Assembly (NCBI GenBank): GCA_020722645.1 | Contig: DYKL01000004.1 | Location: 1 to 32,856, forward strand | Origin: Acetofilamentum sp. | GTDB lineage: Bacteria; Bacteroidota; Bacteroidia; Bacteroidales; JAFGUD01 | Length of the DNA stretch: 32,856 nt | Direction: 5' to 3' | Shown here: piece after piece, positions 588-11,670 of the stretch | Position numbering within the stretch: the first letter of the stretch is position 1 | Layout of the letters: every line of letters starts with the position of its first letter | The notes under the pieces: generated by a model | The model's input: the letters and a program-made list of their open reading frames with translations, nothing else | Told to the model about the DNA's origin: nothing | The model's database searches: none | Program-made: the position numbers and the translations under genes

Positions 588-2027
588 CTAAATTTTGGGG
601 TTAAACTTTAAAACACTAAAAGCCCCTTTAACTGCATACATAAATTCCTGTAATGAACGAATCTCTTTTAGTTTATTTATTACTGTAATTGGTCTTAAAT
701 AAAATCTTTTAAATGATTGTTTTATCGTTTTAAATAAAAATTGTTCAGAAACAATTTCTGTCCAGTATTCTACTTTAAAATTTTCATAAATTTCAATTGG
801 ATTTTCTGCAAATTCAAGCCAATAATCTTTTGAAAATAAACCTTTTTCAAGTCCTTCCAAATAAGCTTCGGTAAAAGGATATGGAACCAAAACACTATAC
901 TGGGCATAATTTAAACCAATTTTTCTTGAAAATCTCAAAGTTTCTAATATATCTTCTTCCGTTTCGTCCGGTAAGCCAATCATAAAATTACCAATAGTTG
1001 TTATTTTAGCTTTTTTGCACCATTTAATAACTTTTTTAATTTGTTCGGTTGTTATACCTTTTTTAATACGTTTCAATGTTTTTTCAACACCTGATTCAAT
1101 ACCGAATTGTATTCTATGAATATTTGCAGCTTTGACTTCTTTTATCAACTCTTCGGTAATGGTATTTATACGACCTCTGAAACTCCAATCGATTTTAATT
1201 TTTTCATCTTGCAAAGCTTTTGCAAAATCTATTACCTTTTTGGGCTGTAGTGCAAATAAATCATCAAAAAAGAATATTTCTTTATAACCTAAATCAAGTA
1301 AATATTTTATTTCTTCAATAATGTTCTTTGTGGAACGACTTCTATATTGTTTACTAGGACAGTAGCAATAAGTACATTTGAAAGGACAACCTCTTGAAGA
1401 CATGACGGTTGCAACCATTTTATTTCTACCAACAATACTTTTATACAAATCCATTGGCAATAGAGTTCTGTCAGGAATTGGTAAAATGTCTAAATTTTGA
1501 ATAAAAGGAATATTAGAATTATAAAAAATTTCATTATTTTTTAAAAAGCCGATACCTTGTATTTTTGATAATTCTTCATCATTTTTATTATTTTGCAATC
1601 CATCAATAAGTTCTAAAAATGTAAATTCAGCTTCACCGTTTAAAATAAAATCGATATTAGGATATTTAATACTTTGTTTAGGATAAAGAAAAGTATGATG
1701 TCCACCAATTATAACATAAATTTCAGTATTCAATTCTTTCACCAATTTTGCGGTATCCAAAACATCAATAATTGATGTAGTAAAAGTTGTTATACCCACG
1801 GCAAAAGGATTAAACAATAAAATTTCAGACTTAATTTCTTCAAAGTCATATTTCATTGGAACACAGTCCAAAATTTTAACTTCGTAAGCATTATTTTTCA
1901 GCACTGTTGCCAAATACATCAAACCAAGCGGAGGATAATATCCTATAATATCAATAAAATCGTCTTCAATTCCGGCAGCAACAACATTTTTCTGTGGAGG
2001 ATTTATAAGTAAAATTTTATTATTCAT
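588..2027 (-). CDS. B12-binding domain radical SAM protein
   Basis: I start this 479-residue protein at the ATG whose product begins MNNKILLINPP, because that matches the normal first strand of the cobalamin-binding fold. A start 27 bases upstream would add an unrelated hydrophobic stub. Residues about 1-150 form the Rossmann-like B12-binding domain. Cys214, Cys218 and Cys221 form the CxxxCxxC motif that holds the radical SAM [4Fe-4S] cluster, and the SAM-binding barrel runs to about residue 400. Class B enzymes of this type methylate or rearrange unactivated carbons in lipids, cofactors or natural products. The canonical DxHxxG cobalamin motif is not evident, as is usual in this class. The substrate cannot be read from the sequence, and no biosynthetic cluster surrounds the gene. 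It lies downstream of a strong terminator, so it probably has its own promoter. Confidence 0.88.
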   Translation of the reverse strand: MNNKILLINPPQKNVVAAGIEDDFIDIIGYYPPLGLMYLATVLKNNAYEVKILDCVPMKYDFEEIKSEILLFNPFAVGITTFTTSIIDVLDTAKLVKELNTEIYVIIGGHHTFLYPKQSIKYPNIDFILNGEAEFTFLELIDGLQNNKNDEELSKIQGIGFLKNNEIFYNSNIPFIQNLDILPIPDRTLLPMDLYKSIVGRNKMVATVMSSRGCPFKCTYCYCPSKQYRSRSTKNIIEEIKYLLDLGYKEIFFFDDLFALQPKKVIDFAKALQDEKIKIDWSFRGRINTITEELIKEVKAANIHRIQFGIESGVEKTLKRIKKGITTEQIKKVIKWCKKAKITTIGNFMIGLPDETEEDILETLRFSRKIGLNYAQYSVLVPYPFTEAYLEGLEKGLFSKDYWLEFAENPIEIYENFKVEYWTEIVSEQFLFKTIKQSFKRFYLRPITVINKLKEIRSLQEFMYAVKGAFSVLKFNPKI

Positions 2028-2043
2028 AAATATACATATAAAA

Positions 2044-2065
2044 AAAGTCTGCAAAAGCAGACTTT
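2044..2065 (-). terminator. Intrinsic terminator of the hemerythrin sensor gene
   Basis: A perfect 9-bp stem, AAAGTCTGC with GCAGACTTT, surrounds a four-base loop. On the minus strand it is followed immediately by a run of T. It begins 3 bases after the sensor gene's stop codon and ends 16 bases before the radical SAM start, so it separates the two transcripts. Confidence 0.85.
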
Positions 2066-2068
2066 AAT

Positions 2069-4837
2069 TTATCTGATTCCATGTTTTTTAAATAAATCTA
2101 CATATTTTTTATCAGTAACAGTAACGTGTTCAGTAACCCAAGATTTCAAAAGAATAATCAACTGAAATACAGAATTTTTGCTACCACCAACGTATTCAGT
2201 AAACAATTCAATTACCCTGTTAACAAATTTTTGATGATTAATATGATGATTATCAAAATCCTGATAATTAAATTCTTTCATATACTTTTCTTCAAAACCG
2301 AAGTGATAATCTGTATAATCCATTAATTTTTTAAAAATTTCATTTAAAGCGATGTCTTTATCATCACTGTTTAATACTTCATAAAGCTTATTAATAAATT
2401 CAATCCAGCGTTTATGCTGATTATCAATCATTGATATACCTAACTCAAATTTTGGTCCCCATTTAATAAGTTGTTTTTTGTCTATATCTATATTAGTCAG
2501 CGGTATATTATTTTTTTCAAGTAACTCTGTATATTTTTCGATAAGCATAGAGTTTTGAAAATCTTTTTTAGCAAGCTCATTAATAAATTCTTGGCTCATA
2601 TCAACTTTTTTAGCAAATCGTTCAGTGTCTTTTAAGAACAATACCATTCTCATGTCTTCTTCTTTTTCTGCTTCGATAATCATCATTTCAAGATGGACTT
2701 TTTGAGTTTTACCATCTTTTATTGTGATAATAAAATCTTTGCCTTTATCATGTTTAATTTTCTCCATATTTTCGAACAAAAATTCACAAAGTTTAGCATC
2801 TTTTGCTTCAGGTGGTTTCAGTAACAATTTTTCAACATTTAGTCCAAGTATTTCCATTTCGTTATACCCCCATAAATCTTCTGCCGCTATATTAACAAAA
2901 TCAATAATCCCGTCTCTTTTAATTATCAAAACGGCTGTCATCATAAAATTCAATATTTCAAGACTTTGTTTCTGACTTTTAGATATTTGTTTGATTTTTG
3001 TATCGTTTTCCTGTGTAAGTTTCTGAATTTCTAATTTTTGTATTTCGTCTTTGTACTTAATTTGTTTATTAGCTTCTTCAAGGTCTCTAACTAAATTTCG
3101 TAAATTATCTTCATTTTTTCTTCTTTCATCGTGAGCTTTTTTAAGTTCATCAATTGTAGAACGCATCGCCGTTTCCTGTTCTTTCATTTCAGCCGCCTGA
3201 ATCTGGAATTTTTCGAGTAAATCAGTAGTTTGAGCAGAAATACGAACAGATTTAAGAGTAGATCCGATACTTTCAGCAATTTTTTCTACAAGCTCAATTT
3301 CATATTGATCAAATGTTCTGAACGAAGCCAATTCAACCACACCTAAAACTTCAGTATCTACTTTTAAAGGAACAATAAGAATACTTCGTGGATTTGCAGC
3401 ACCTGTTCCTGATTTAATTTCTATATAATCTTCGGGAACATCAGTCATATAAACTGTAAATTTTTCGACGGCAACAGCACCAATTAAACCCTCGCCAAGT
3501 TCAAGTTTCTTTTCAATAAATTTTTCTCTGTTCCACGCGTACGCAGAAAGAATATCCAAATAAATATGTCTTTTATCTTCATCATTTAATAAAAATATAA
3601 CACCTTGATTACAGTTCAAAAATTTAACTAAATTTGAAATAACTTCACTTCCTAATTTTTTCAGATTATGTTGATTTTGTCGAAGAATATCAGAAAATTT
3701 AGCCAAACCGTCAGCAGTTCTGCTTCTTCTGTAGTCTTCCAGTTTTCTGTTTTCTTCTTCTCTTTTAGCAGACAACAAACTTTCGCGAAGTTGAATCAGA
3801 GAATTCCCTAAAACGTCTGTATCACTAGCAGGATAGAATTTATAATCAAAATTACCGCCTGAAATTTCCTTTGCAAATTCAGCCGAATGCTTTAAATTTG
3901 TAACTAAAGACTCTAAAGATTCAACGATAAGTCCAATTTCATCAGTCCTGTCTTTATCTATGTTTTTAGGAAATTTTCCTTTGGATAAGTTAAGAATTAT
4001 TTCATTGGTTTCTGTAAGTGGTTTAATAACATTACCTGAAATAACGAAACTTATAATCAGAATAAGAATTAAAGAAACAGAAAAAATAATAGCAGTTGAT
4101 ATTATTGTATTTCTTCTTGCTCCTGTTATCAATTGTTCATCTTTGTTTGTTTCTTCCTGAATATTATATGATATTTTGTCTAATGAAAAAGTTTGTGATT
4201 TAATTTTATTTGTAATAAAAACAGTAATATCATTTATTGATTTTTCGTAAACACTTACCAATTCTTCAACAACCTCATCTTTATCGGTATATTCTTCGTC
4301 GTAAGACGTAACAATAACGCCAATATGCTGCTGTTCGTTAACTAACCTTTCGTAATCATCTTTAATTTTTTCGGGATGAATAATTAAATATTTGTACTCA
4401 ATTAATTTGTTTACAGATAATTTGATATTATCATTGTATATCCCTTCGTATTTAAACAAAGTATCATTAAAAGAGGAAAGGAAATTTATAGTATTTTGAT
4501 CTTTTAAATTTTTAATGTCAATATTTTCGAGTTCGATAAAAACAGAAGAAATATCAATGTCAAGAGATTTGAACTCGTTGGAATTTTTTACAAAGTCATC
4601 ATTGTTATTAGAATTGGCAATTTTTGCCATTGTTGCATCTAATTTAAAATACAAATTCTGTAATTTTATAAAATTGTTTTTGTATAAAGTCAGAACATAT
4701 CTGTCTTCATAATTTTTCTGAATTTTTACAATTTTATTAAACTCAATTATTCCAATGCCTAACGAGAGAAAAAGAGTAAATAATAGCCCAAAAATAATTT
4801 TATTTTTTATACTGATATTGTCAATAAAAGTTGCCAT
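2069..4837 (-). CDS. Membrane HAMP-GAF-PAS sensor with C-terminal bacteriohemerythrin domain
   Basis: This 922-residue protein has a transmembrane helix at about 14-32, a periplasmic helical sensor region at 33-240, a second transmembrane helix at about 244-268, and a HAMP linker at about 268-320. A GAF domain follows at about 390-530, then a long coiled coil (535-625), a PAS domain (about 625-740) and a bacteriohemerythrin domain (about 792-918). All seven di-iron ligands of hemerythrin are present: His808, His845, Glu849, His864, His868, His904 and Asp909. Such domains bind O2 and may also respond to NO or iron. There is no histidine kinase, methyl-accepting signalling, GGDEF, EAL or phosphatase domain, so the output is unknown. 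It probably signals through a partner bound by the coiled coil. It has a lone promoter-like site upstream and a clear terminator, so it appears to be a single-gene unit. Confidence 0.88.
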   Translation of the reverse strand: MATFIDNISIKNKIIFGLLFTLFLSLGIGIIEFNKIVKIQKNYEDRYVLTLYKNNFIKLQNLYFKLDATMAKIANSNNNDDFVKNSNEFKSLDIDISSVFIELENIDIKNLKDQNTINFLSSFNDTLFKYEGIYNDNIKLSVNKLIEYKYLIIHPEKIKDDYERLVNEQQHIGVIVTSYDEEYTDKDEVVEELVSVYEKSINDITVFITNKIKSQTFSLDKISYNIQEETNKDEQLITGARRNTIISTAIIFSVSLILILIISFVISGNVIKPLTETNEIILNLSKGKFPKNIDKDRTDEIGLIVESLESLVTNLKHSAEFAKEISGGNFDYKFYPASDTDVLGNSLIQLRESLLSAKREEENRKLEDYRRSRTADGLAKFSDILRQNQHNLKKLGSEVISNLVKFLNCNQGVIFLLNDEDKRHIYLDILSAYAWNREKFIEKKLELGEGLIGAVAVEKFTVYMTDVPEDYIEIKSGTGAANPRSILIVPLKVDTEVLGVVELASFRTFDQYEIELVEKIAESIGSTLKSVRISAQTTDLLEKFQIQAAEMKEQETAMRSTIDELKKAHDERRKNEDNLRNLVRDLEEANKQIKYKDEIQKLEIQKLTQENDTKIKQISKSQKQSLEILNFMMTAVLIIKRDGIIDFVNIAAEDLWGYNEMEILGLNVEKLLLKPPEAKDAKLCEFLFENMEKIKHDKGKDFIITIKDGKTQKVHLEMMIIEAEKEEDMRMVLFLKDTERFAKKVDMSQEFINELAKKDFQNSMLIEKYTELLEKNNIPLTNIDIDKKQLIKWGPKFELGISMIDNQHKRWIEFINKLYEVLNSDDKDIALNEIFKKLMDYTDYHFGFEEKYMKEFNYQDFDNHHINHQKFVNRVIELFTEYVGGSKNSVFQLIILLKSWVTEHVTVTDKKYVDLFKKHGIR

Positions 4838-11238: not shown

Positions 11239-11670
11239 TTATAAATTGAAAATCATTTTAACAATTTGTCCATTATTATAAGAAAATTCGACAATATCGG
11301 CTAAATTAAGAATAATAAATACACCTCTGCCTGTTAATTTTTCTCGATTTATAGTTTCAGTGGGGTCATCAATTAATTTATAATCAAAACCGGCACCTTC
11401 ATCTTTAACAGCAATTTCGAGTTTTTTAGATGAAATTTTGTAATATACAGTAACATTTTTATTTGGATTAAACTTATTACCGTGCACAATAGCATTGTTA
11501 ATAGCCTCAGATAATGATAACAAAACATTACCATATATTTCGTCAGAAATCACAATTTTTGAAGACATCTTTTGAATGACCTGCTCGGCATAAGTAATAT
11601 TTTTAAAATCAGATTGAAATACGATTATTTCATCATAATTATTCTTTTCCAAGTCTGTACATGTAATCAT
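11239..11670 (-). CDS. RsbW/SpoIIAB-like GHKL ATPase (anti-sigma-factor-type kinase)
   Basis: This is a stand-alone HATPase_c domain of 143 residues. The ATP-binding boxes are visible: the N box from Glu55 to Asn59 in SEAINNAIVHG, the G1 box DEGAGF at about 90-95, and the G2 box TGRGVFI at about 113-119. Proteins of this shape act as anti-sigma factors and serine kinases in Bacillus. No anti-anti-sigma (STAS) protein or matching sigma factor is nearby, so the target here is unknown. The start overlaps the end of the DUF4175 gene by 32 bases, implying translational coupling. ybeY begins 2 bases after its stop. Confidence 0.85.
   Translation of the reverse strand: MITCTDLEKNNYDEIIVFQSDFKNITYAEQVIQKMSSKIVISDEIYGNVLLSLSEAINNAIVHGNKFNPNKNVTVYYKISSKKLEIAVKDEGAGFDYKLIDDPTETINREKLTGRGVFIILNLADIVEFSYNNGQIVKMIFNL

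Follow-up and report, generated by a model that had tools for sequence, protein, structure and literature searches.

The window (the whole 32,856-nt stretch of DNA analyzed here) carries a minus-strand gene (2069..4837) for a 922-residue receptor whose layout, from the ORF list and Pfam/NCBIfam matches, is TM-periplasmic-TM-HAMP-GAF-coil-PAS-hemerythrin. Hydropathy places hydrophobic stretches near residues 12-32 and 242-275, and these enclose a probable periplasmic domain of ~210 residues (putatively residues about 33-244; 4106..4741, minus strand) without a Pfam match. The remaining features, all on the minus strand, are a HAMP domain (residues 266-316; 3890..4042; Pfam E 3.4e-6), a GAF domain (residues 390-528; 3254..3670; Pfam E 7.7e-15) that the family alignment identifies as the core of a HAMP-GAF-coil family, a signaling coil recognized from conservation and modeled by AlphaFold as a single long helix (residues 534-630; 2948..3238), a PAS domain (residues 628-738; 2624..2956; Pfam and fold search), and a C-terminal bacteriohemerythrin (Hr) domain (residues 790-916; 2090..2470). 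A gene for a B12-binding radical-SAM protein lies downstream (588..2018, minus strand; assigned from Pfam, synteny, and distribution), its best NCBIfam matches, HpnJ and BchE, being far below cut-off. Between the two genes is an intrinsic terminator (2044..2065, minus strand), a 9-bp stem and T-run at 2065..2044 that persists in two congeners through compensatory changes (GTCTGC/GCAGAC versus GTCCGT/ACGGAC).

The first-pass annotation proposed that the receptor has no known output domain, and this holds under every search applied. Pfam and NCBIfam detected no kinase, cyclase, phosphatase, or MCP domain in the 922 residues, and phmmer against PDB returned only DcrH/bacteriohemerythrin and FixL/DosP PAS sequences, with no catalytic domain. 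An AlphaFold model of residues 534-922, built with an alignment of 13 orthologues (mean pLDDT 83.6), runs from a helix of 97 residues through a PAS fold and a second helix of 38 residues to a four-helix bundle, and the top matches listed in a fold search were PAS proteins (FixL, DosP, LOV) and DcrH-Hr, giving no hint of a concealed enzyme. A divergent catalytic domain in residues 535-790, which the annotation had itself suggested looking for, was thus sought by profile and by structure, and we rejected it on the results of Pfam, NCBIfam, phmmer/PDB, AlphaFold, and Foldseek. A match to PF24820 ("Diguanyl_cycl_sensor") was below cut-off and coincided with the PAS domain, and the signaling coil gave only weak, uninformative coiled-coil matches in PDB, mostly to designed proteins. 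MCPsignal (PF00015) has no match in the receptor, and none was detected in the source genome. The receptor has no SpoIIE/PP2C domain (Pfam) and so is not a SiaA-type phosphatase, and no GGDEF domain (Pfam, NCBIfam) and so is not an Hr-diguanylate cyclase (Bhr-DGC). Bacteriohemerythrin is an O2/redox sensor in Vibrio cholerae Bhr-DGC and Ferrovum Bhr-HD-GYP (PMC9388753), but those proteins have an N-terminal Hr and a catalytic domain in cis, whereas the window receptor has no catalytic domain. The Porphyromonas gingivalis protein PG_0686 (Hr-PAS10-DUF1858), which reportedly produces c-di-GMP (PMC10101095), is likewise a Bacteroidales Hr and PAS protein without a recognized output domain, but it has 517 residues, no TM segment, an N-terminal noncanonical Hr, and no HAMP or GAF; with so different an architecture, we dismissed this GGDEF-less cyclase as a relative.

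The Hr assignment rests on NCBIfam NF033749 (residues 790-916, E 5.8e-33, above cut-off) and a Pfam Hemerythrin match to residues 800-914. Reading the residues bears out the earlier claim that all seven di-iron ligands are intact (H808, H845, E849, H864, H868, H904, and D909). The nearest solved Hr domain is that of DcrH (phmmer E 2.4e-17; Foldseek TM 0.92), and the DcrH-type MCP-hemerythrin receptors of Desulfovibrio vulgaris resemble the window receptor in being membrane receptors with a HAMP domain and a C-terminal bacteriohemerythrin. Unlike DcrH, the window receptor has no MCP signaling domain and carries GAF-coil-PAS there instead. A 2016 survey found MCP-Hr, with the Hr C-terminal, to be the commonest multidomain Hr architecture (PMC4919030). 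The source genome encodes two other hemerythrin-like proteins of ~245 residues (L166:5826-7159 and L167:6633-7944), each gene adjoining a ~190-aa gene that resembles a small regulator, and these pairs could be small O2/redox systems.

The annotation also suggested looking for the architecture elsewhere, and a search of 149 related genomes recovered full-length homologues with the same domain order in 12 other genomes. Their hosts span several family-level groups within one order; the copies in public databases come from Bacteroidales MAGs. Each Fe ligand is kept in at least 90% of the 13 aligned orthologues and the ligand set in 11 of the 13, with G057 lacking three ligands and G037b at least one; both still keep the Hr region. 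A quick family tree with SH-aLRT support grouped the Hr orthologues together with two Hr-less proteins nested inside, and placed three other Hr-tailed family members in a distant clade (one orthologue, L047, has a long branch and an unsure placement). Because Hr-less relatives are nested among the orthologues and the other Hr members are distant, the domain was probably gained at least twice within the family, can be lost, and is probably dispensable for it; it therefore looks like a swappable accessory sensor. This bears on the proposal that Hr does not sense but acts as the effector, carrying O2 or serving as a binding platform. Hr is indeed the last domain of the receptor, and its retention in two orthologues despite lost Fe ligands hints at a function additional to O2 binding, but it is missing from most family members as well as from the nested relatives, and C-terminal Hr is common on receptors with a separate output (PMC4919030). 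The nested Hr-less relatives and the two orthologues that have lost Fe ligands speak against the proposal, and we regard an effector role as distinctly improbable.

The receptor had also been described as a single gene with its own terminator. The terminator is real and covarying, but the single-gene status is less clear because an orthologue of the radical-SAM gene lies directly downstream of the receptor in four genomes, with a start/stop overlap in one of them (G071). Orthologues of this gene occur in 8 of the 13 Hr-receptor genomes and in none of the 136 others among the 149, and the gene is the window receptor's most specific genomic link. The receptor might then be dedicated to the adjacent B12/radical-SAM pathway, sensing O2 and controlling or binding an O2-sensitive enzyme, and both the adjacency and the finding that all eight orthologue-bearing genomes also have the Hr receptor point this way. 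Yet at the threshold used five Hr-receptor genomes have no orthologue, four others carry it elsewhere (partly adjoining glycosyltransferases), the terminator separates the two genes in the genus, and the shared descent of these lineages could explain the pattern, which makes such a dedicated role unlikely.

The HAMP-GAF-coil portion (residues ~241-590) has numerous additional gene matches, with identities of about 40-45%, and across residues 250-590 the receptor is ~40-45% identical to these members, placing it in a large, mostly Bacteroidales receptor family. A first look gave up to 76 candidates per genome, with 14 matches in the source genome. We sampled 93 further members and surveyed their tails: in 12 the coil forms the C-terminal end. 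In the C-terminal tails of the other 81, Pfam recognized PAS in 74 members, Hr in 4, and some Cache-like matches, and none of these tails matched a kinase, cyclase, phosphatase, MCP, or DNA-binding family. Among ten paralogues scanned in the source genome, an output domain was found solely in one SpoIIE protein. The lack of an output domain in cis is thus the rule for this receptor family. The earlier supposition that the Hr domain stands in place of an output domain is not supported; output-less C termini are general in the family and Hr is a sporadic add-on. Similarly, the statement that the receptor "transmits by unknown means" is true of this protein but is shared by the whole family, for which we propose a candidate partner below.

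We found this candidate in the neighborhoods of other family members. By Pfam, CheR methyltransferases flank five members on both sides, with CheB beside them, and longer stretches revealed a conserved order, CheR-receptor-CheR'-CheB-TM/GAF-[GAF-coil-PAS-PAS-SpoIIE phosphatase]-SiaB-SiaC, present in genomes G039, G066, G026, G081, and G139 and partial in G018. In these clusters SiaB is DUF6272 and SiaC belongs to PF09345; both were Pfam-tested in G081 and G018, and elsewhere the SiaC end was assigned from SiaC matches at corresponding positions. The source genome carries CheR-CheR'-CheB-TM/GAF on one contig (C387) and receptor-SpoIIE-SiaB-SiaC-ABC/TerB on another (C615; ABC/TerB by Pfam). Its SpoIIE protein (L157:5887-8493) has the family GAF, the conserved Trp at position 373, and a related coil of the same type, and this sharing of GAF, Trp373, and coil with the receptors suggests action in trans on SpoIIE. 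In G197, from another family of the phylum, HAMP-GAF-PAS-PAS-SpoIIE is one protein inside a CheR-CheB-TM/GAF-SiaB-SiaC cluster, and homologues of 1126-1131 aa are also found in G294 and G334. The window receptor itself is adjacent to neither CheR/CheB nor SpoIIE-SiaB-SiaC, its neighbors being the radical-SAM gene and a polyprenyl synthetase. A genome-wide link to a known output partner, named in the first-pass annotation as a possible refutation, is therefore partly present for the family, in the form of the conserved cluster, the SpoIIE fusion, and co-occurrence, but is indirect for the window gene.

Alternatively, the shared GAF-coil might pass the signal in trans to a hybrid histidine kinase and not to the SpoIIE phosphatase. 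Other families of the phylum fuse GAF-coil to HisKA/HATPase/REC, once directly after CheR-CheB (L206), and in the flanks that we sampled, response-regulator/SpoIIE genes neighbor a few of the family members; within the order, by contrast, no such kinase occurs among the 81 family tails and the recurrent operon partner is SpoIIE-SiaB-SiaC. We consider the kinase route doubtful, and a SpoIIE partner remains our preferred reading.

Several further genes were observed near family members. In the source genome two long proteins with a similar MS..IL.AL.QL.A start lie near family receptors (L157:1677-4841 and L163:8991-12122); the first, directly after SiaC, is by Pfam a TerB-ABC transporter/ABC-2 fusion, and a similar start is also found after SiaC in G018 and G197, making this protein a candidate for an additional SiaABC cluster component. 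A 1001-aa GAF-PAS-PAS paralogue in the source genome (C103; L165:6918-10450) has an H-NOX (HNOB) gene directly after it, a pairing repeated in three other genomes (L050, L118, and L122) that likely feeds NO/O2 signals into this family of receptors. H-NOX was rejected as a general partner: it adjoins these four family members, C103 included, but not the window receptor. Within the window, 11239-11670 encodes a 143-aa RsbW-like HATPase_c_2 protein, between ybeY and a DUF4175 gene in a neighborhood kept in a congener, that is a possible anti-sigma/partner-switch kinase.

Across the 149 genomes surveyed, 57 were receptor-positive at E<=1e-30 and 92 negative. Without phylogenetic correction, CheR was found in 56/57 positive versus 30/92 negative genomes (p 1e-17), SiaC in 52/57 versus 12/92 (p 1e-22), and CheW in 39/57 versus 8/92; in CheW-negative genomes alone, the association held for CheR (p 7e-8) and SiaC (p 1e-7), again uncorrected. 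SiaC copy number also tracked the number of receptor candidates (Spearman 0.73, n=77, uncorrected for phylogeny). This co-occurrence of receptor, CheR, and SiaC is phylogenetically confounded. The source genome has 18 SiaC genes in 18 places on 16 contigs, with a SiaB-like match near nine of the SiaC loci fetched, together with three CheR matches and one CheB. CheW and MCPsignal were undetected there, an absence that is not proof in a MAG that is 96.7% complete and in 684 contigs, and CheW and MCPs are present in two congeners. The receptors are thus retained, together with CheR and CheB, even where neither CheW nor MCPs can be detected, and we rejected CheA/CheW chemotaxis as a requirement. 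That the receptor is a noncanonical chemoreceptor working through CheA/CheW would fit its co-occurrence with CheW and the location of some family genes inside che loci (L154 and L155), but the receptor has no MCP signaling domain, neither CheW nor an MCP domain was detected in the source genome, and CheW is missing from 18 receptor-positive genomes; this reading is hard to favor, with a probability that we judge to be low. The G091 chemotaxis locus (L154) has a HAMP-GAF-coil receptor adjoining CheB and, inside it, two tandem single-domain bacteriohemerythrin-like genes (L154:7037-7923).

The explanation that we find best, at a probability of roughly 0.45, is an output-less, chemoreceptor-like receptor with an accessory Hr domain, whose GAF-coil acts in trans on a SiaA-type SpoIIE switch and is tuned by CheR/CheB. 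The Hr domain would bind O2 and, placed at the receptor C terminus as in DcrH, give the cytoplasmic side an accessory O2/redox sensor, and the periplasmic, GAF, PAS, and Hr inputs would converge on a dimeric GAF-coil. The coil would then act in trans on a SiaA-type SpoIIE (PP2C) phosphatase, the receptor's GAF-coil module touching the like module of the phosphatase, and the response of the phosphatase would shift the SiaB/SiaC phosphorylation switch; the window receptor would presumably follow the same route as its relatives. In canonical family members, CheR/CheB-type enzymes would methylate coil Glu/Gln residues and thereby tune sensitivity. In Pseudomonas aeruginosa SiaC is dephosphorylated by SiaA and phosphorylated by SiaB (PMC7647112), and it is the unphosphorylated form that activates the partner protein SiaD (PMC8457831). 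The family clusters similarly encode a SpoIIE/PP2C phosphatase, SiaB, and SiaC, but SiaA senses within one protein, whereas the present family has many separate receptors with the same GAF-coil as the phosphatase, and, unlike in P. aeruginosa, the clusters add CheR/CheB and SiaC is multicopy. Among the open-access papers searched, we found none linking CheR/CheB to SiaC or describing a CheR/CheB-SiaABC receptor system.

The post-GAF coil is highly conserved in the family alignment (N..T..LL..SQ.Q.EE...QEEEMRQN.EEL.ATQEE), and its likeness to MCP methylation helices is our impression, without a profile match. The window receptor, whose coil opens with this motif, keeps 13 of its 25 conserved residues and the genus 11-13; across the family the median is 22.5 and the 5th percentile 10, and several distant orthologues are near canonical for the coil motif and Trp373. 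Glu or Gln occupies 3 of 7 candidate coil positions in the receptor and 2-3 of 7 in the genus, against a family mean of 6.1, and codon 373 (3719..3721, minus strand), Trp in 98% of the family by alignment, encodes Arg, a position altered among the orthologues in this genus only. Because of the drifted coil, the few Glu/Gln residues, and the Trp373-to-Arg change, methylation or partner binding may have been lost in this genus, which may represent a specialized, nonmethylated branch.

More broadly, we tentatively envisage a CheA/CheW-independent system of Bacteroidota, somewhat less probable than the reading of the single receptor, in which banks of output-less receptors, the window receptor as an O2 sensor among them, would adapt through CheR/CheB methylation of their GAF-linked coil, jointly influence a SiaA-type PP2C phosphatase with a coil of this kind, and switch SiaB/SiaC in place of a CheA-CheY cascade. 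Many Bacteroidota proteins are annotated just as GAF/PAS/HAMP sensors without a recognizable output, and if the route through CheR/CheB and SpoIIE-SiaB-SiaC is true, this large set of orphan receptors would gain a pathway, and chemotaxis-style adaptation would be coupled to partner switching in organisms without CheA/CheW. The hemerythrin receptor would offer a defined O2/redox input for testing the SpoIIE-SiaB-SiaC pathway.
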